DNA of 64,000 nt from an uncultured Pelagibacteraceae bacterium (GTDB lineage: Bacteria > Pseudomonadota > Alphaproteobacteria > Pelagibacterales > Pelagibacteraceae). Below, in pieces: positions 8,102 to 35,623 of this stretch (position 1 is the stretch's first letter; every line of letters begins with the position of its first letter). A program made the position numbers and the translations under genes. The DNA lies in contig CABYFB010000001.1 in the NCBI GenBank assembly GCA_902518165.1, forward strand, positions 17,501 through 81,500. The letters are read 5' to 3'. The notes under the pieces were generated by a model. The model saw only the letters and a program-made list of their open reading frames with translations. It was not told where the DNA came from and made no database searches.

Positions 8102-9403
8102 CTAAGATCTGTAATCAGAATTAATTTCAATATATTCTTTAGATAAATCCATAGTATACGCTGTAAATTTTTTACTTCCAATAGATAGATCAATTGTTAT
8201 CTCTATATTCTCATTTTTCATATAATCACTTAGGATATTTTCGTTATAATTTTTATCTAATTTTCCATCTTTAAGGATCAAATTAGATCCCATTAATATA
8301 GATAATTTTTCTTGTTTAACAGTTACACCACTTTTTCCGATTGCCATTGCTATTCTTCCCCAATTAGGATCTTCTCCAAAGATTGCTGTTTTAACTAAAG
8401 GTGAGTTAGCTATTGAGAAACAAATATTTTTTGCATCTTTCTCAGTTTTGCTATTAAGGCAATTGATAGTAACAAATTTTGTTGCTCCCTCTCCATCACT
8501 CGCAACTCTTTTTGCTAAGTTTAACATGACCTGATGAACGCTACTAATGAATTGCTTTAATTTTGGATCTTTAAAACTTTTTATCTCTTTGTTGTTTGCT
8601 TTGCCTGTTGAAAATATTGAAACCATGTCATTTGTACTAGTATCCCCATCGCATGTTATAGCATTAAAAGTAGTCTTAATATTTAGATTAAGTATCTGTT
8701 TCAAAATTGATGAAGAAATATTGGCATCAGTAAAAATAAATCCCAAAGTTGTTGCCATATTTGGAAAGATCATTCCTGATCCTTTTGCAACTCCATATAT
8801 TTTTACATCGGAACCAGCTATCTTACATTCTGCCATTGATAATTTTGGTTTAGTGTCTGTTGTCATAATCCCAAGAGCTGCTTTGATCCAAATTAATTTA
8901 TTTTGATTATATTTTATTTTATCAACTAAGTTTTTAGTGTTACTTAAAATTTCATTTTCAGGAAATTTTTCCCCTATGGTGCCTGTGCAAGCAAATAGTA
9001 ATTGATTTGGTTTAATTTCTCTTGGCTTTTCCTCATCTTCTATTTGTTTTGATGTTAATAATTTTGACAAATTTAAGGAAATTTTTTTAAGAGAGTTATA
9101 ACCATCATTCCCTGTTAAGGCATTTGCGTTTCTTGTATTGATTAAAATGCCGTAAATTTTTTTATCTTTTATTTTTTTATTCCATTTTATATTTTCAGAT
9201 ACTAAACTAGATTTTGTATATACATTTGCATAATTTGCTCCATCCCTAAAATAAAATAAAACTAAGTCGTCTCTTTTTTTGTTATAAAGACCACAGCTAA
9301 TTGTTGAGATAGACAATCCGTCAATATGTTCGAGATCTTGAAAATATCCTATTTTAGAGTCCTTGTATTTCTTATCAAAAAAGTTGTTTATACCAAAATC
9401 CAT
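8102..9403 (-). CDS. argJ: bifunctional glutamate N-acetyltransferase / ornithine acetyltransferase
   Basis: ArgJ moves the acetyl group from N-acetylornithine to glutamate, closing the cyclic arginine pathway. The 433-residue precursor contains the self-cleavage site in GMIFPNMATTLGF, with T218 as the expected nucleophile of the beta chain after cleavage at A217-T218. The consensus here is usually ATML, so the second Thr is a small variation. The TNDM block that follows CDGDTSTNDMVSIFSTG is also present. With argF, argD and argB elsewhere in this window most of the arginine route is represented. Confidence 0.95.
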   Translation of the reverse strand: MDFGINNFFDKKYKDSKIGYFQDLEHIDGLSISTISCGLYNKKRDDLVLFYFRDGANYANVYTKSSLVSENIKWNKKIKDKKIYGILINTRNANALTGNDGYNSLKKISLNLSKLLTSKQIEDEEKPREIKPNQLLFACTGTIGEKFPENEILSNTKNLVDKIKYNQNKLIWIKAALGIMTTDTKPKLSMAECKIAGSDVKIYGVAKGSGMIFPNMATTLGFIFTDANISSSILKQILNLNIKTTFNAITCDGDTSTNDMVSIFSTGKANNKEIKSFKDPKLKQFISSVHQVMLNLAKRVASDGEGATKFVTINCLNSKTEKDAKNICFSIANSPLVKTAIFGEDPNWGRIAMAIGKSGVTVKQEKLSILMGSNLILKDGKLDKNYNENILSDYMKNENIEITIDLSIGSKKFTAYTMDLSKEYIEINSDYRS

Positions 9404-9462
9404 GCTATTTAATTTTTTAAATAAATAACTATATAATTTATAACTATTAAAACATCAAATAT

Positions 9463-11986
9463 ATGCTTAATCCTTTAAACATTATTAGTAAATTTATAAA
9501 AAGTGGCAATCAAAAGGAATTAGACAGAATTCAAAAAATTGTAGAAGAAATTAATCTTAAAGAAAGTAAGGTTAGTAAATTTGAGGATAATGAATTTCCT
9601 TTAAGAACAAATGAATTTATCTCTAGATTAAAAGAAGGAGAAAAATTAAACGATTTATTACCAGAGGCATTCGCATTGGTAAGAGAAGCTTCGAAAAGAA
9701 TTAACAATGAGAAACACTTTGATGTTCAGCTAATTGGAGGTATTGCATTACATGAGAATAAGATTGCAGAGATGAAAACAGGCGAAGGCAAAACACTTAC
9801 TATAGTTCTTGCTGCATACCTTAACGCATTAGAAAAAAAAGGTGTTCATATAGTTACTGTAAATGATTACCTCGCAAAAAGAGATAGTATTAATATGGGT
9901 AAAATTTACAATTTTTTGGGTTTGAGCTGTGGATATATAAACTCTAACCAGTCAGATGAGGAACGCAAAGAAAATTATAATAAAGATATAACTTATGCCA
10001 CTAACAGTGAATTAGGTTTTGATTTTTTAAGAGATAACATGAAATATTCAAAAAATGAGATGGTCTTGAGGAAGCATAACTTCGCAATAGTTGATGAGAT
10101 TGACTCTTGTTTAATTGATGAGGCAAGAACTCCTTTGGTTATTTCTGGGGCAGCAGAGGATAAAACTATGCAATATATTGCTGTAGATAAATTAATTAAA
10201 AATTTGAAAAAAACAGACTTTGACTTAGATGAAAAAGAAAAAAATATACTCTTAACAAATGAGGGAATAGATAATGTTGAAAAAATATTTTCTGATGCTG
10301 GTATTTTAAAAAATAACAATTTTTATGACCCAGAAAATTTACATTTAGTTCATCATGTAAACCAAGCATTGAGGGCAAATTATTTATTTGAGAATGGACG
10401 AGATTATATAGTTAAAGATAACGAAATAATTATAATTGACGAGCAGACAGGCAGGCAACTGCCAGGTAGAAGATTTGGTGATGGACTCCATCAGAGTTTA
10501 GAGGCTAAAGAAAAAATAGAAGTTAAAGCTGAAAATCAAACACTGGCATCAATAACCTATCAAAATTTTTTTAAGTTGTACGATAAATTAGCAGGTTGCA
10601 CAGGAACAGCGCAAACAGAGTCTGCAGAATTTTTTGAAATTTATAACTTGCCTGTTTTACAGATACCTACCAATAAAGAAATGATAAGAAACGATCTTAA
10701 TGACCAAATCTTTAGAACAGGTTTAGAAAAAGACAATGCAATCATTCAAAAAATAAAAAAATGTAATGAAATTGGACAACCACTGTTGGTTTTCACATCT
10801 AGCATAAATAAATCTGAGCATTACTCAAATTTGTTAGAAAAAGAGAAAATTAAACATATTGTTTTAAATGCTAAAAATCATGAGAAAGAAGCAGAAATTA
10901 TTGCAAATGCTGGCAAAACAAATTCGGTAATTATTACAACAAGTATATCGGGAAGAGGTGTTGATATTAAGTTAGGTGGACAAGATCAATCTGAAAAAGA
11001 GGATGTAAAAAAAAGGGGGGGGGTTATTTGTTATTGGAACAGAAAGAATGGAAAGTAGAAGAGTTGACAATCAAGCAAGAGGACGATCTGGAAGACAGGG
11101 AGATGAAGGAAGTTCGATATTTTTTGTAAGTTTAGAAGATGACTTGATGAGATTGTTTGGCTCAGAAACCATGAATTCAATGCTAGAAAAGCTTGGTCTT
11201 AAAGATGGTGAAAGCATTGATCATCCTTGGATAAATAAAGCGATTGAAAGAGCCCAACAAAAAGTTGAAGCAAGAAACTTTGATATAAGAAAAACGCTTA
11301 TTAAATTTGATAATGTTCTTAATGACCAAAGACATGTAATTTTTGAACAACGAAAAAATGTAATAGATGGTAAAGAAGATGAGAATTATTCAGATATTTT
11401 CCTTGAAGAAGTTTTAGAAAATTTAAAAAGACAAAAAATGTTACACGAAAAATCTCCTAATTCTAAAGAATTTCCAAAAGCTTTAAAGCAGACTTTAGGT
11501 AAATCAGTAACTCATGATGAGTTGGGTGAAATTTTAAATTCAGATCTCAAAACAATGGAAAAAAAAATAAAGGCTAAATTTATAAATAACAGAAATGAAA
11601 GAAATAATTTATTAGGCATTGAACAAGGAAAAGAAATTGAAAAAAGAATATTGGTACAAATTATAGATCAAAATTGGAAATCACATATTCAATACCTTGA
11701 GCAATTAAGACAAGTAATTGGCTTAAGATCTTATGGACAAAGAGATCCTTTAGTGGAGTACAAAAAAGAAGCTTTTCTATTATTTGAAAATTTACTGGGA
11801 AAATTAAAAACTGATCTTATCACAATGCTTTTAAATTTAAAAATAATACAAAAAGAAAAGGAAGATAATTCTCAAAACCAAGTGAATGAAAACTTAAAAT
11901 CAATTGCAAAAAGTAAAATTGGAAGAAATGAACCTTGCCCATGTGGATCTGGGAAAAAATATAAACACTGCTGCGGTGCTTTATAA
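9463..11986 (+). CDS. secA: preprotein translocase ATPase SecA, reading frame broken at a homopolymer
   Basis: SecA drives Sec-dependent export. The first frame (9463 to about 11023) encodes Walker A MKTGEGKT, the DEID Walker B and the preprotein-binding region. The second frame (about 11024 to 11986) resumes exactly with LFVIGTERMESRRVDNQARGRSGRQGD, the SecA motor signature, and ends with the zinc-binding SEC-C tail CPCGSGKKYKHCC. The two parts join at an A8-G9 run. Reading one G fewer gives KKRGGLFVIGTER and a single protein of about 840 residues, the normal length. Because SecA is essential I infer a sequencing or assembly indel, or tolerated slippage, rather than a dead gene. Confidence 0.9.
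11007..11023 (+). other. A8-G9 homopolymer where the secA frame changes
   Basis: Eight A (11007-11014) are followed by nine G (11015-11023). Nine G in a row is exceptional in DNA this AT-rich. The secA frame before the run and the conserved frame after it differ by one base, and removing one G restores the conserved frame. Confidence 0.85.
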
Positions 11987-31394: not shown

Positions 31395-32055
31395 GATCTT
31401 TATAGCTTGTGATACAACCAGTATAAAGAAAATTAAAAACATATTAAAAAATTCAAAATCTAATAAATTAAAAATTGGCTATAAATTTGGACTAGAGTTT
31501 TTAAATTCTAAAAATGGCAGAAAATTTATCCATAAACTAAAAAAACAAGTTACATTTGGAGATTTCAAGTTTTCTGATATTCCAAATACATGCTCCTCTG
31601 CAATAAAAGCGGTAAGTGATTTAAAATTTAATTATATAACTATTCACATTAATGCGGGATTTAAAGCTCTTAAGGAAGCAAAAAAAGCTGCAGGTAAAAC
31701 TAAACTTATTGGTGTAACAATTTTAACTTCTTTAGACAATAAAGCTATTAAAGAGATTGGATTTAATAAGAATGTAAAAGAATTAGTTCTTCATCAGGCA
31801 AGATTAGCAAATAAAGCAAAATTAGATGCTATTGTATGTAGTGCTCAAGAAGTTAAAATAGTAAAAAAAGTATTTAAAAAAGAAATTATAACTCCTGGTA
31901 TAAGATTAAATTCTAAAAAAGATGATCAAAAAAGAGTTTTAACACCTTATGAAGCTTACAAAAACGGTGCTGACTGGCTTGTAATAGGTAGAGATATTAC
32001 CAAAGGTAACATTAAAAATAACATTCAAAAATTAATTAATCATTTAGATAAATGA
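31384..32055 (+). CDS. pyrF: orotidine 5'-phosphate decarboxylase
   Basis: Makes UMP from OMP. The 223-residue TIM barrel shows the catalytic DxKxxDIPNT block as GDFKFSDIPNTCSSAI (about 59-74), IHINAGFKALKEA, the GVTILTSLD strand, and the C-terminal phosphate loop TPGIRL with ADWLVIGRDITKG. Length is typical. It overlaps ihfB upstream and trpF downstream (4 bases), so it sits inside a tightly coupled run from aroA to folC. Confidence 0.95.
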   Translation: MENKIFIACDTTSIKKIKNILKNSKSNKLKIGYKFGLEFLNSKNGRKFIHKLKKQVTFGDFKFSDIPNTCSSAIKAVSDLKFNYITIHINAGFKALKEAKKAAGKTKLIGVTILTSLDNKAIKEIGFNKNVKELVLHQARLANKAKLDAIVCSAQEVKIVKKVFKKEIITPGIRLNSKKDDQKRVLTPYEAYKNGADWLVIGRDITKGNIKNNIQKLINHLDK

Positions 32056-32669
32056 AAAAAGGTATAAAAATTTGTGGGGTCTCAGACCCCAAAACATTAA
32101 ACTATATTTTAAACCACCCTAATCCACCAAATTTTATTGGCTTTATAACTAATTATACAAAAAGTAAAAGGTTTGTAGAATATAAAAAGCTAAAAGAGTT
32201 ACTTAATGTCAATAAAAAAGAAATAAAATTTATTTCAGTTCTTGTAGATCCAAATGATGAAATTTTAGAAAAAATAAAGAATTTAAATTTCGATTACTAC
32301 CAACTCTATGATGTAGATCCAGAAAGAACAAAGGAAATTAAAATAAAATACGGAATAAAAATTATAACTGCACTTACAGTTTCTGGAAAAGTTGACGTAA
32401 TTAAATATAAAAATTATTCAGAGATATCAGATATAATTTTATTTGACTCAAAGGGATATCATAAATCTGAAAGTTTTGATCATAACCTGCTAGATATTGT
32501 ACCAAATGAATTAAATAAAATGATTGCAGGTAATATACAAATAGACGATATTTCTAATTTTAAAAATAAAGATTTCATTATAGACATGAGTGGATCACTA
32601 GAAGACGATAATGGAAAAAAGGATATAAATAAAATTGATAAATTATTAAATTTGTTTGCAAAACTATGA
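32052..32669 (+). CDS. trpF: phosphoribosylanthranilate isomerase (divergent)
   Basis: TrpF carries out the Amadori rearrangement in tryptophan synthesis. The 205-residue protein keeps the catalytic cysteine in IKICGV (C8) and an Asp in the IILFDSKG strand that fits the general acid. Other signatures have drifted: the usual VDVSSGVE-x-x-G-x-K-D tail reads IDMSGSLEDDNGKKD, and the AGG glycine-rich strand reads AGNIQID. The context pyrF-trpF-trpB-trpA-accD-folC is the classical alphaproteobacterial one, so I keep the assignment but note the drift. TrpB and TrpA next to it are also unusual. Confidence 0.85.
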   Translation: MKKGIKICGVSDPKTLNYILNHPNPPNFIGFITNYTKSKRFVEYKKLKELLNVNKKEIKFISVLVDPNDEILEKIKNLNFDYYQLYDVDPERTKEIKIKYGIKIITALTVSGKVDVIKYKNYSEISDIILFDSKGYHKSESFDHNLLDIVPNELNKMIAGNIQIDDISNFKNKDFIIDMSGSLEDDNGKKDINKIDKLLNLFAKL

Positions 32670-33910
32670 AAATTAAAAAAAAAATTCCACTAATTGATCA
32701 AGCAAATAAGCTTGGTTTTTGGGGTGGAAAGTTTGGAGGCAACTACGTTCCTGAAACATTGAAAAAACCGATAGAGGACCTAGAAATTCTATTCAATAAA
32801 TTAAAAAATGATAAAAGATTCATAGCTGAAAGAGATAAATATTTTAAAAATTGGGTTGGTGCTCCTACTCGTTTTATAAAATTAGAAAATCTAACAAATC
32901 ATGTGGGTGGTGCTCAAATTTGGTCTAAAGTTGTGTCAGATGCAAATGGAGGAGCACATAAAATATATAATGCTACTGTACATTGTCTACTTGCCAAACG
33001 ATCTGGTAAAAAATTTATAATTGGAGATACTGGTGCTGGTTATGCAGGTAAAATGTTGAGTATGGCTGCTAAAAAATTTGGTTTAAAATGTAAAATTTTC
33101 ATGGGAGCAAAAGATATTGCAAGGCAACAGCCAAATGTAAAAGCTATGAAAAAGAATGATGCTGAAGTAATACCTGTATACTCAGGAAGTCAAACACTTG
33201 TTGACGCTGTTTCTGAATGTATGAGATACTGGGTTGCTAATTGTGATACGACAGCAATGTGTGTTGGAAGCACAGTAGGTCCTGCTGTTTTTGTTCGTAT
33301 TTGTGGATGGAGTACTAGTCAAATTTCAAGAGAGCTAAAAATTCAATTAATTGATGAATTTGGGTCAATACCAAAAAAACTAAAACTTTATAATTGTGTT
33401 GGTGGTGGAAGTTCAAGTTTTGGTTTTTGGAATGAGTTTATGGATTATGACAAAAAACAATGCGAATTTATCGGTGTAGAAGCTGGAGGGCCAATAAAGA
33501 GTAAAAAACATGCAGCACCTTTAACTTATGGTTCAAAAATTGGTATTCTTCATGGTGCAGCTCAATATGTTAATCAAAACTCAGATGGACAGATAGAAGA
33601 AACGGAGTCAATTTCTGCTGGACTTGATTATCCTGGAATATCTCCACTTCATTGTTTTTTAAAAGATACGAAAAGAGCGAGATATACTGCTGCAAGTGAT
33701 GAAGATGCTTTAAGTGCTTATAAAATCGTGACCAAGTTTGAAAAGTTAAGACCTTCTCTAGAACCAAGTCATGCTTTTTCAGTTGCAATTAAAGAAGCAA
33801 AAAAACTAAACAAAGATACAATAGTTGTAGTTAATAGTTGTGGTGATGCATATAAAGATCGAGAAATTTTAAAAAAAAGACTGGGAAAAAAATATGTTGA
33901 ACCCAATTAG
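32666..33910 (+). CDS. trpB: tryptophan synthase beta subunit (divergent active site)
   Basis: PLP enzyme joining indole and serine. The 414-residue protein keeps the PLP lysine K99 in GGAHKIYN, the phosphate loop VGGGSS, and SISAGLDYP with the conserved Asp. Aligned without gaps from K99 (Salmonella K87) to D180, the catalytic E109 is Asp (D121, GDTGAG), H115 of GAGQHG is Ala (A127), K167 is Val (V179), and S377, which touches the PLP ring nitrogen, is Cys (C392, NSCGDA). These are unusual for TrpB. Flanking trpF/trpA still support the role. A different acceptor or altered coupling is possible. It overlaps trpA by 17 bases. Confidence 0.88.
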   Translation: MKIKKKIPLIDQANKLGFWGGKFGGNYVPETLKKPIEDLEILFNKLKNDKRFIAERDKYFKNWVGAPTRFIKLENLTNHVGGAQIWSKVVSDANGGAHKIYNATVHCLLAKRSGKKFIIGDTGAGYAGKMLSMAAKKFGLKCKIFMGAKDIARQQPNVKAMKKNDAEVIPVYSGSQTLVDAVSECMRYWVANCDTTAMCVGSTVGPAVFVRICGWSTSQISRELKIQLIDEFGSIPKKLKLYNCVGGGSSSFGFWNEFMDYDKKQCEFIGVEAGGPIKSKKHAAPLTYGSKIGILHGAAQYVNQNSDGQIEETESISAGLDYPGISPLHCFLKDTKRARYTAASDEDALSAYKIVTKFEKLRPSLEPSHAFSVAIKEAKKLNKDTIVVVNSCGDAYKDREILKKRLGKKYVEPN

Positions 33911-34694
33911 TCTCGCTTTTAAAAAAGCGAAACAAGAAAATAGAGCTGCTCTATTAACTTATACTGTTGCGGGAGATAGTTCAAAAAAACAATCATTAGA
34001 TATATTGAAATCAATTTCAAAACATGCTGATATTTTAGAGTTAGGGGTACCACACAACACTCCAGTAGCAGATGGTAGTCAAATCCAAACAAGTGCATAT
34101 AGAGCGATTAAAAATGGTATTAAAATGAATGATATTTTTAAAATCGTGAAAGACTTTAAAAAATCAAATAAAAATAAGCCAATTATATTAATGGGATATT
34201 TTAATATGATTTTTCAATATGGAGAAAATAAGTTTTTAAATAAGTGTAATTCTTCAGGTGTAAATGGATTAATAGTTGTAGATTTGCCTTGGCCAGAAAA
34301 TAAAAATTTTGCTAAAAAATGTAAAAAAAAATCTATTTATTTTATTCAGCTTTTATCACCAACAACCACAACAAAGAGGCTTAATAAAATTATAAGAGAC
34401 TCTCATCCTATGAATTATTTTATTTCAATGTTGAGCACAACAGGTGGTAAACTAAAAGTTTCACCTAATGATATATTAAAAAATTATACCAAAATTAAAA
34501 AAATTGATCCAAAGAAAGAAATTGTTATTGGTTTTGGAATCACTGAAAAAACAATTGGCAAACTCAAATCTGCAGATGGATTGGTTGTTGGAAGTGCTAT
34601 TTGTAAGGAAATTAGCAAGAGTTTAGAGCATAGACAAAATCCTGTCACAAATGTAAGTAAGCTAGTAAAAAAATTAAAAAGTAAAATTCTATGA
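33894..34694 (+). CDS. trpA: tryptophan synthase alpha subunit (altered loop 2)
   Basis: Cleaves indole-glycerol phosphate to indole. The 266-residue TIM barrel keeps both catalytic acids at the same numbers as E. coli: E49 (LELGVP) and D60 (VADGS). Loop 2 between them, normally FSDP, is HNTP (54-57), so Asp56, which contacts beta-subunit Lys167, is Thr. Loop 6, usually GVTG, reads STTGG. Phosphate-binding GFGI and VVGSAI are normal. The beta partner has lost Lys167 too, so the two subunits changed together. The end overlaps accD by 4 bases. Confidence 0.9.
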   Translation: MLNPISLAFKKAKQENRAALLTYTVAGDSSKKQSLDILKSISKHADILELGVPHNTPVADGSQIQTSAYRAIKNGIKMNDIFKIVKDFKKSNKNKPIILMGYFNMIFQYGENKFLNKCNSSGVNGLIVVDLPWPENKNFAKKCKKKSIYFIQLLSPTTTTKRLNKIIRDSHPMNYFISMLSTTGGKLKVSPNDILKNYTKIKKIDPKKEIVIGFGITEKTIGKLKSADGLVVGSAICKEISKSLEHRQNPVTNVSKLVKKLKSKIL

Positions 34695-35623
34695 ACTGGA
34701 TTACAAAAGCTTTAAGTTTTGGTGAAAAAATTAAAAGAGTTTTAAAAAAAAGACCATCAAAAGAGGATATAGCAAACTCAGACTGGACAAGTTGTTGCAC
34801 AGGGCCAATATTAAAAAAAGATCTTGAAGAAAACTTATGGGTTTGCAACTCATGTGGAAAACATCATAGAATTAATTGTAGACAAAGATTTGATATTATT
34901 TTTGGAAAAAATGCTTACGAAATACTTGATACACCAATTCCTGCAGAAGACCCCCTTCAATGGATCGATACCAAATCATATAAAGATAGATTAAAATCTG
35001 CAAGAAAGAATACTAATCAAAATTCAGCTGTGATGATTGCTAAAGGCAGAATAAATGGAATTGAGGTGACAGCAGGAGCTATTAATTTTGAGTTTATTGG
35101 TGGTTCTGTTGGTGCGGCTGAGGGTGAAGCAATTATTTATGGTGTTCAACATGCTATTGATAATCAGACTCCGTTTGTATTCTTTCCATGTGGTGGAGGA
35201 CAAAGAATGTTTGAGTCTCCTATTGCCCTTGCAAATATGACAAGAACTACCCTTGCTATTAATGAACTTAAAAAAAATAACCTTCCTTATTTAGTTTGTT
35301 TTACAGATCCAACAGCTGGCGGAATTACTGCATCTTTTGCGATGTTAGGCGACATTCATTTTGCCGAACCTGGTTGTTTAATAGCCTTTGCAGGAAAAAG
35401 AGTTATACAAGCAACAGTTAAAGAAGAACTTAGTTCAGACTTTCAAACCTCTGAGTTTGTCGAAAAGCATGGATTTGTCGACAGAATTGTTGAGCGAAAA
35501 GATTTAAAAACTGAAATAAGCTTACTATTATCAATATTGCTAAAAAAAGATAACGCGGTAAATGAAAAACAAATAAATGAAACTTCAGTCAATATTGAAC
35601 CGCTTGCAAAAGCTGCATCCTAA
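34691..35623 (+). CDS. accD: acetyl-CoA carboxylase carboxyltransferase subunit beta
   Basis: Partner of AccA. The 310-residue protein has an N-terminal zinc-ribbon region, but the first knuckle reads SCCTGP (C35, C36 adjacent) instead of CxxC, while the second is normal (C52-x2-C55). The carboxyltransferase core shows INFEFIGGSVGAAEGEAI and a variant GGGQRMFESPIALANMTRTT where GGARMQEG is more usual, and PTAGGITASFAMLGDIHFAEPGCLIAFAG. Its place between trpA and folC is the conserved one. The reading frame of folC starts 47 bases before this stop. Confidence 0.93.
   Translation: MNWITKALSFGEKIKRVLKKRPSKEDIANSDWTSCCTGPILKKDLEENLWVCNSCGKHHRINCRQRFDIIFGKNAYEILDTPIPAEDPLQWIDTKSYKDRLKSARKNTNQNSAVMIAKGRINGIEVTAGAINFEFIGGSVGAAEGEAIIYGVQHAIDNQTPFVFFPCGGGQRMFESPIALANMTRTTLAINELKKNNLPYLVCFTDPTAGGITASFAMLGDIHFAEPGCLIAFAGKRVIQATVKEELSSDFQTSEFVEKHGFVDRIVERKDLKTEISLLLSILLKKDNAVNEKQINETSVNIEPLAKAAS

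Follow-up and report, generated by a model that had tools for sequence, protein, structure and literature searches.

A probable tryptophan synthase of SAR11 bacteria in which both partners of the alpha-Asp56/beta-Lys167 salt bridge are replaced

We analysed a 64,000-nt stretch of DNA from an uncultured Pelagibacteraceae (SAR11) bacterium (assembly GCA_902518165.1, contig CABYFB010000001.1, positions 17,501 to 81,500; hereafter the window), which carries a divergent pair of tryptophan synthase genes, trpB and trpA (Table 1). Both partners of the salt bridge between alpha-Asp56 and beta-Lys167 are replaced in this type of pair, mostly by Thr/Val or Ala/Val. Judged from sequence and gene context, the SAR11 pair is probably a working tryptophan synthase whose two subunits were remodelled together and whose subunit coupling was rewired. 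The remodelling would date to the common stem of most SAR11 bacteria in the sample, with tight conservation thereafter.

Among named organisms, the genome (1.226 Mb in 35 contigs, estimated to be ∼93% complete) is closest to Pelagibacteraceae (SAR11) genomes, with TrpB up to 97% identical to that of the window. The end of trpF overlaps the start of trpB by 4 bases, and trpB overlaps trpA by 17. By Pfam, NCBIfam and PDB comparison, the two proteins were identified as the beta and alpha chains of tryptophan synthase. The best PDB match of window TrpB was LBCA TrpB (E 7e-100), and the TrpB1 model TIGR00263 was matched over nearly the whole length. TrpB2 proteins share the PALP fold family with window TrpB, but the latter scored far below the cut-offs of the TrpB2 models (93.2 versus 518.85 bits for TIGR01415, 84.9 versus 366 bits for NF009057). 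These comparisons assign the pair to the TrpA–TrpB of the TrpB1 line.

Window TrpB has Asp109, Tyr114, Ala115, Val167, Ser236, Cys377 and Asp379 (E. coli numbering here and throughout; the alignment was ungapped at each site). Asp109 is shared by 163 distinct SAR11 rows, of which 160 have Tyr114, 161 have Ala115, 162 have Val167 (Ile in the other one) and all have Ser236. As the same residues occur in nearly all of these rows, the changes are no sequencing accident. In the Salmonella enzyme, Glu109 pairs with the indole nitrogen, Gln114 bonds Asn145 and Arg148 in the closed state, and a bridge between Arg141 and Asp305 stabilises the closed beta subunit (PMC9512447, in the part available). The replacement of Glu109 by Asp, which defines the window type, retains the carboxylate with one carbon less, and the closed-state partners Gln114 and Arg148 are both replaced. 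Both residues of the closing Arg141–Asp305 salt bridge are kept in 163 of 163 Asp109 rows, as are His86, Lys87 (the Schiff base of pyridoxal phosphate, PLP), Arg175 and Glu350; the GGGS phosphate loop (G232–S235) is also kept.

In window TrpA, loop 2 reads HNTP (H54-N55-T56-P57) where the canonical sequence is F-S/T-D-P, and loop 6 reads STTG instead of G-x-T-G. Across 162 readable members of the type, Glu49 was present in 162 and Asp60 in 161 (Glu60 in one), and Thr183 was found in all 161 that could be read at that site. An earlier note on this DNA, made from the sequence alone, had called the HNTP loop, the change of Asp56 to Thr and the retention of E49 and D60 in TrpA, as well as E109D (D121), H115A (A127), K167V (V179) and C392 in TrpB; the alignments place all of these as it did. 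It had also counted S377C towards an altered active site. The residue is there, but Cys377 is common in the other Alphaproteobacteria sampled (48 of 62 canonical TrpB), and we dropped it from the altered site.

To describe how the two positions of the contact vary together, we compiled 241 distinct TrpA/TrpB pairs (177 from Pelagibacterales, 63 from other Alphaproteobacteria and one from E. coli). They came from 267 loci with a TrpB-like frame, 258 of which also had a TrpA-like frame; duplicates were removed, as were L001-L004, L127 and L128. Two of the 241 rows were gapped at 56/167, and 238 of the 239 pairs with both residues readable were concordant. Lys167 went with an acidic residue 56 in 75 pairs (Asp56 in 66, Glu56 in 9), and a non-basic residue 167 with a non-acidic residue 56 in 163 (Val/Thr 138, Val/Ala 22, and Val/Cys, Ile/Thr and Leu/Thr one each). 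The sole discordant pair (L268; Leu167/Asp56) comes from another alphaproteobacterium, G391, where it is a divergent second copy. This strongly divergent trpB-trpA-like pair also has Val305, and G391 carries a canonical trpB besides.

In trees of 81 representatives of the 241 rows, built with the trait columns removed (L106, L126, L138, L185 and L268 were left out), the 15 window-type representatives formed one clade for both subunits, set apart by a long stem (1.9 changes per column for TrpB, 2.3 for TrpA). Each residue was lost twice, in the window-type clade and in the lone, long-branched L117 (genome G017). The joint change of TrpA and TrpB proposed in the earlier note is supported by the pairs, and trees of the kind it had suggested, with SAR11 and others, place the co-occurring losses in the window-type clade and in L117. 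Relatives in which only one partner had changed were looked for and none was seen; two TrpB proteins without Lys167 from outside SAR11 have no trpA that we could find. Of its two suggestions, a rewired enzyme or a shifted substrate, the first is plausible, although the coupling depends on two changes on the tree and neighbouring, overlapping genes would be co-inherited in any case, and the second finds no support in the gene context described below.

In model enzymes, the effects of changing Asp56 were significant in the complex alone (PMC6608616, in the part available), and in the mycobacterial enzyme, as far as the source could be seen, alphaAsp64, the equivalent of Asp56, interacts with betaLys181, which corresponds to Lys167 by residue counting. 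In the remodelled enzyme, TrpA would still cleave indole-glycerol phosphate and TrpB would still join indole to serine, with Asp109 replacing Glu109 in holding the indole nitrogen. The signal from TrpA loop 2 to TrpB helix 6 may pass through a differently packed interface instead of a salt bridge. Mutual activation might then be altered or weaker, and each subunit might work best only with a partner of its own type.

TrpB proteins encoded apart from trpA offer another view of Lys167. Nine loci had a TrpB-like frame without a TrpA frame in the fetched stretch, two from SAR11 (L127 and L128, weak hits) and seven from other Alphaproteobacteria. Lys167 was kept in five of these seven, and Ser167 was found in L256 (G355) and L263 (G359), both otherwise canonical at the sites checked (Glu109, Gln114, His115, Asn236, Asp305). 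One trpA each, always with Asp56, was found in G305, G308, G347 and G313; in the first three, TrpA lies elsewhere in the genome or on another contig and both Lys167 and Asp56 are kept. The searches found neither trpA nor trpC in G355 (78% complete), G359 (99%) or G307 (87%), and Lys167 is lost in two of these three genomes. Lys167 loss is therefore not confined to SAR11, and its loss in genomes without a detected trpA fits a role of Lys167 in the TrpA contact. G355 and G359 may use indole with TrpB alone.

The contact is one of many sites that changed. A position was counted as switched if 95% or more of 66 canonical rows agree on its residue and the 161 window-type rows have a different, conserved one. 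By this definition, 36 of 157 otherwise invariant positions switched in TrpB, including N81A, H82N, T83G, N89Y, E109D, Q114Y, H115A, R148A, K167V, Y186M, N236S and R379D, and 5 of 41 in TrpA (F54H, D56T, E134P, F173M and G181S). Loops 2 and 6 together hold three of the five in TrpA (uncorrected p 0.043).

Several observations weigh against joint remodelling of a working tryptophan synthase. The tree holds only two coupled changes, hence at most two independent pairs, which is too few for a sign test; with two changes per tree, coupling statistics cannot reach significance, and we dropped the test. The genes are adjacent, overlap and are co-inherited anyway, so that linkage alone would keep a pair together. 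G307 has kept Lys167 although no trpA was found in it. The loop enrichment in TrpA is weak (p 0.10 and 0.33 for the single loops), and no significant enrichment of switches was seen in the TrpB regions tried; clustering in the COMM domain, in helix 6 or in the 109–115 loop was rejected (p 0.30, 0.70 and 0.20, respectively). Structure-based proof was attempted with AlphaFold2 on 20 close TrpB rows, and the model (mean predicted local distance difference test score, pLDDT, 44.9) was too poor to use. One member of the window type, G043, is more distant from the window (TrpF 34, TrpB 55, TrpA 48%) than the normal range described below. Window TrpB also falls 13.6 bits short of the TIGR00263 equivalog cut-off (378.9 versus 392.45 bits). 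Finally, the betaE109D enzyme of Salmonella, reportedly the subject of a 1992 title by Brzovic, is said to be altered in specificity and activity, and by analogy a changed side activity of the window enzyme is possible.

The last two points would also be expected if the pair, or TrpB alone, had turned to another beta-replacement reaction or a non-indole acceptor, as would the changes at the indole and PLP sites (E109D, Q114Y, H115A, N236S, R379D). We nevertheless regard such a shift of substrate as highly improbable. Same-type relatives straddle the cut-off, and G066, a single-contig genome with the window type, passes it with 403.5 bits. The rest of the pathway is present: trpF is adjacent, and trpC lies on contig 11 with trpD, trpG and trpE beside it. 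In this genome (G000), trpE is in two overlapping frames on the minus strand (L281:8479-9021 and 8990-9937) that cover positions 12-284 and 283-455 of TIGR00564, a frameshift either in the assembly or in the gene. The genome has one trpA and three PALP-family proteins, namely TrpB and two whose scores mark them as cysteine synthase A and threonine synthase; TIGR00263 has one further, weaker, unlisted match. A second, canonical trpAB, which according to the earlier note would make this pair look like a paralogue, was looked for in the genome and none was seen. The ratio of non-synonymous to synonymous substitution rates (dN/dS) was 0.033–0.064 for trpB and 0.053–0.107 for trpA in nine comparisons each, so both genes are under strong purifying selection, and the invariance of Lys87, Arg141 and Asp305 across the Asp109 rows likewise argues against a new reaction. 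Artificial seawater with pyruvate, glycine, methionine and vitamins has served as medium for the SAR11 strains HTCC1062 and HTCC7211, tryptophan not being listed in the available part of the source (PMC8437039), and the single trpB of HTCC1062 has been argued to be necessarily functional (Kagan 2008, PMC2395257, in the part available). From this pathway context and strain growth we infer that window TrpB makes tryptophan from indole and serine.

A different account of the lost contact is that TrpB, and perhaps TrpA, became largely autonomous and that an allosteric contact no longer needed decayed on both sides. Three of the six activity-linked residues of stand-alone LBCA TrpB (Thr53, Ser187 and Ala279; PMC11917138, in the part available) are present in the window type, in 163, 163 and 160 of 163 rows, compared with 2, 8 and 2 of 62 canonical alphaproteobacterial rows; in E. 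coli numbering these are positions 57, 190 and 282, assigned by hand from the PDB-match alignment. TrpA loops 2 and 6 are altered, and the Ser167 proteins of G355 and G359, genomes with no trpA or trpC match, indicate that Lys167 can decay where there is no TrpA to serve. The other three LBCA positions are occupied in the window by residues unlike those of LBCA TrpB (R, D and A), however, trpB and trpA still overlap, and the near invariance of Thr/Ala56 and Val167 within the clade fits a new contact better than decay. We therefore consider autonomy possible but rather unlikely; the partial set of LBCA residues may still point to a lower dependence of TrpB on TrpA.

A further rival reading is drift, of no functional meaning, in a streamlined and fast-evolving genome. 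Compared with G039, which belongs to the same order and has a canonical pair, the window is more distant from E. coli in neighbouring proteins too: identities for the window and G039, respectively, were 28/45% for ihfB, 39/47% for accD, 32/39% for rpsA, 33/37% for trpC, 29/32% for cmk, 26/28% for folC and 33/35% for pyrF, compared with 40/55% for TrpB and 27/35% for TrpA. The drop in percentage points was thus 17 for ihfB, 15 for TrpB, 8 each for TrpA and accD, 7 for rpsA, 4 for trpC, 3 for cmk and 2 each for folC and pyrF. Part of the excess is a faster rate in Pelagibacteraceae, and TrpA lies inside the spread of the neighbours; by this measure its excess divergence is not clear. It is clear for TrpB, which drops more than all neighbours but ihfB although it is the most conserved of these proteins in G039.

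A calibration on 231 pairs among 22 canonical loci provided a second yardstick. TrpB identity was never below 69% and TrpA never below 47%, even at a TrpF identity of 25–35%, where the values were 73 ± 3% and 53 ± 3%, respectively. The window and G039 (TrpF 30%) share only 42% in TrpB and 39% in TrpA, whereas three type members of the other family (TrpF 27–34%) share 67–69% and 53–55% with the window, at the low end of what is normal. Horizontal spread of window-type trpBA between the two SAR11 families, suspected from a TrpB identity of 69% against 27–43% in the flanks, was rejected on the same calibration, since 69–78% is normal for TrpB at that TrpF distance. The low dN/dS values, the TrpB identity to G039 far beneath the lowest canonical pair, the conservation of the new residues across two families and the canonical pair kept by G039, a SAR11 genome of the same size, all argue against drift, which we consider improbable.

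The window type is present in both sampled families of Pelagibacterales. The 177 pairs from the order are a non-random draw, 76 of them having been taken from the 80 loci that match the window best; the remaining 101 comprised 87 with Asp109, 13 with Glu109 and one unreadable. In a fairer sample of 61 relatives, 47 had a TrpB at least 55% identical to that of the window, five had another TrpB1 (30–42%) and nine had none. Canonical pairs persist in three Pelagibacterales rows (L118, L130 and L131). The NCBIfam trpB cut-off was reached in 81 of 257 Pelagibacterales genomes, while some match (E≤0.001) was found in 249, part of these probably being weak matches to other PALP proteins. Among 19 SAR11 genomes chosen for having no usable trpB1 match (including G008, G021, G024, G026, G032 and G036), only G197 has trpA above the cut-off, and trpC is kept in six of the nine covered by the trpC search; the missing genes may reflect joint loss or assembly gaps. 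One of them, G024 (82% complete), in which neither trpA nor trpB1 was found, encodes a TrpB2-type protein (L285:12389-13750; NF009057, 728 bits) apart from the trp genes.

The pair might also have come, already in this form, from an unsampled donor rather than being altered within SAR11. The long stem in both trees would agree with this, as would the alternative pairs that occupy the same locus in close relatives. No donor was seen, however: the motif DTGAGYAGK occurred in 5 of 385 genomes of the class, all five Pelagibacteraceae, and the best 80 of 276 loci in the genome collection were all titled Pelagibacteraceae. An origin by acquisition seems doubtful to us, and it would leave the functional reading, a working enzyme with rewired coupling, unchanged.

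The alternative pairs differ from the window type in both subunits. Three genomes of the same genus as the window (G012, G022 and G017) have trpBA in the same gene context, with TrpF 60–65% identical to the window but TrpB only 32–37% and TrpA 29–37%. Identity in accD is 64% for G012 and 61% for G017; G022 is distant also in accD (45%) and folC (30%). Likewise, G012 and the single-cell genome AG-911-E04 share 81% in rpsA and 86% in accD but 39% in TrpB and 29% in TrpA, and G039 and G050, from one genus of the second family, share 84% in rpsA and 79% in accD but 51% and 42% in the two subunits. TrpB and TrpA thus differ together and, except in G022, far more than their flanks do, a pattern to be expected if the two are replaced, or diverge, as one.

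These pairs also lack other contacts. The G050 type (three rows: L119, L133 and L134, that is G050, G119 and G123) keeps Lys167 and Glu56 and has Leu141 and Asn305. The G012 type (six rows: L115, L116 and L190-L193, that is G012, G022, G250, G257, G202 and G072) keeps Arg141 and has Gln/Thr305 and alpha-Glu60, the last of which is also found in 3 of 62 canonical rows. The very long-branched TrpB of G017 (L117:5857-7921) has Leu167, Asn115 and Lys141, with Thr56 in TrpA, and its genes lie between an ordinary SAR11 trpF and accD. We tentatively suggest, with rather more doubt than confidence, that Pelagibacterales trpBA is one co-adapted unit with several alternative allosteric wirings, exchanged as a whole while its position in the operon stays the same. 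As the window type lacks the 56–167 bridge and the 114–148 bond and the G050 type lacks the 141–305 bridge, there would then be at least two coupling solutions in one order.

Table 1. Genes and altered codons of the trpF–accD region (positions in the window; residues as numbered in the window protein, with E. coli equivalents; neighbouring genes named from E. coli matches, trpF also by Pfam)
Feature	Position	Strand	Basis
trpF (phosphoribosylanthranilate isomerase)	32052..32669	+	PF00697 83 bits, cut-off 22.7; open reading frame
trpB, divergent tryptophan synthase beta chain, 414 amino acids	32666..33910	+	PDB and TIGR00263 comparison
Asp121 codon, Glu109 (indole-activating carboxylate)	33026..33028	+	alignment
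Tyr126-Ala127 codons, Gln114-His115	33041..33046	+	alignment
Ala160 codon, Arg148 (forms a hydrogen bond with Gln114 in the closed state of the Salmonella enzyme; PMC9512447, available part)	33143..33145	+	alignment
Val179 codon, Lys167	33200..33202	+	alignment
Ser250 codon, Asn236 (PLP phosphate loop)	33413..33415	+	alignment
Cys392-Gly393-Asp394 codons, 377-379 (Asp replacing Arg379 unusual)	33839..33847	+	alignment
trpA, tryptophan synthase alpha chain, 266 amino acids	33894..34694	+	TIGR00262 211 bits, cut-off 102
His54-Asn55-Thr56 codons, TrpA loop 2 (canonical Phe-Ser/Thr-Asp)	34053..34061	+	alignment
Ser181 codon, TrpA loop 6 (canonical Gly181)	34434..34436	+	alignment
accD, next operon gene, flank control for gene history	34691..35623	+	open reading frame

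Compared with the canonical TrpB1–TrpA of Salmonella and E. coli, the window pair shares the trpB-trpA linkage, the PLP lysine, the GGGS loop, Arg141–Asp305, Arg175 and alpha-Glu49/Asp60/Thr183, and differs by betaE109D, Q114Y, H115A, R148A, K167V, N236S and R379D and by alphaF54H, D56T and G181S; its lower identity to E. coli than that of a canonical member of the same order is given above. Of the six activity-linked residues of the stand-alone enzymes (LBCA TrpB, plTrpB of Pelodictyon luteolum), three are present in the window and three are not, and plTrpB was found through those six residues, not via loss of the 56/167 contact (PMC11917138, in the part available). The TrpB proteins of G355 and G359 resemble the window in having Lys167 replaced but, unlike it, are canonical at the other sites and have no trpA or trpC match. 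That trpB of SAR11 forms a cluster of its own has been on record since 2008, when a SAR11-like trpB_1 cluster was described from the Sargasso Sea (Kagan 2008, PMC2395257); the part of that article available names no residues, no change in the TrpA partner and no alternative pairs. Judged from titles, abstracts and available parts, it was the only work with SAR11 trpB as its topic among those listed, and no publication on these three subjects turned up in the literature searched, which lacked most subscription journals.

Tryptophan synthase serves as a model of allostery and substrate channelling, and what is known of its key contacts comes from a few enzymes that possess them. An enzyme that lacks those contacts in nature and is under strong selection, together with a sister type lacking another closing bridge, makes it directly testable, with matched pairs from a single order, which contacts are needed. 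For annotation, the data carry a warning that cut-off-based methods under-call trpB in Pelagibacterales. The enzyme in question is probably the one that makes tryptophan in a group of marine bacteria that is very abundant and, if our reading is true, the inter-subunit coupling of tryptophan synthase would have been solved in at least two different ways within this one order.

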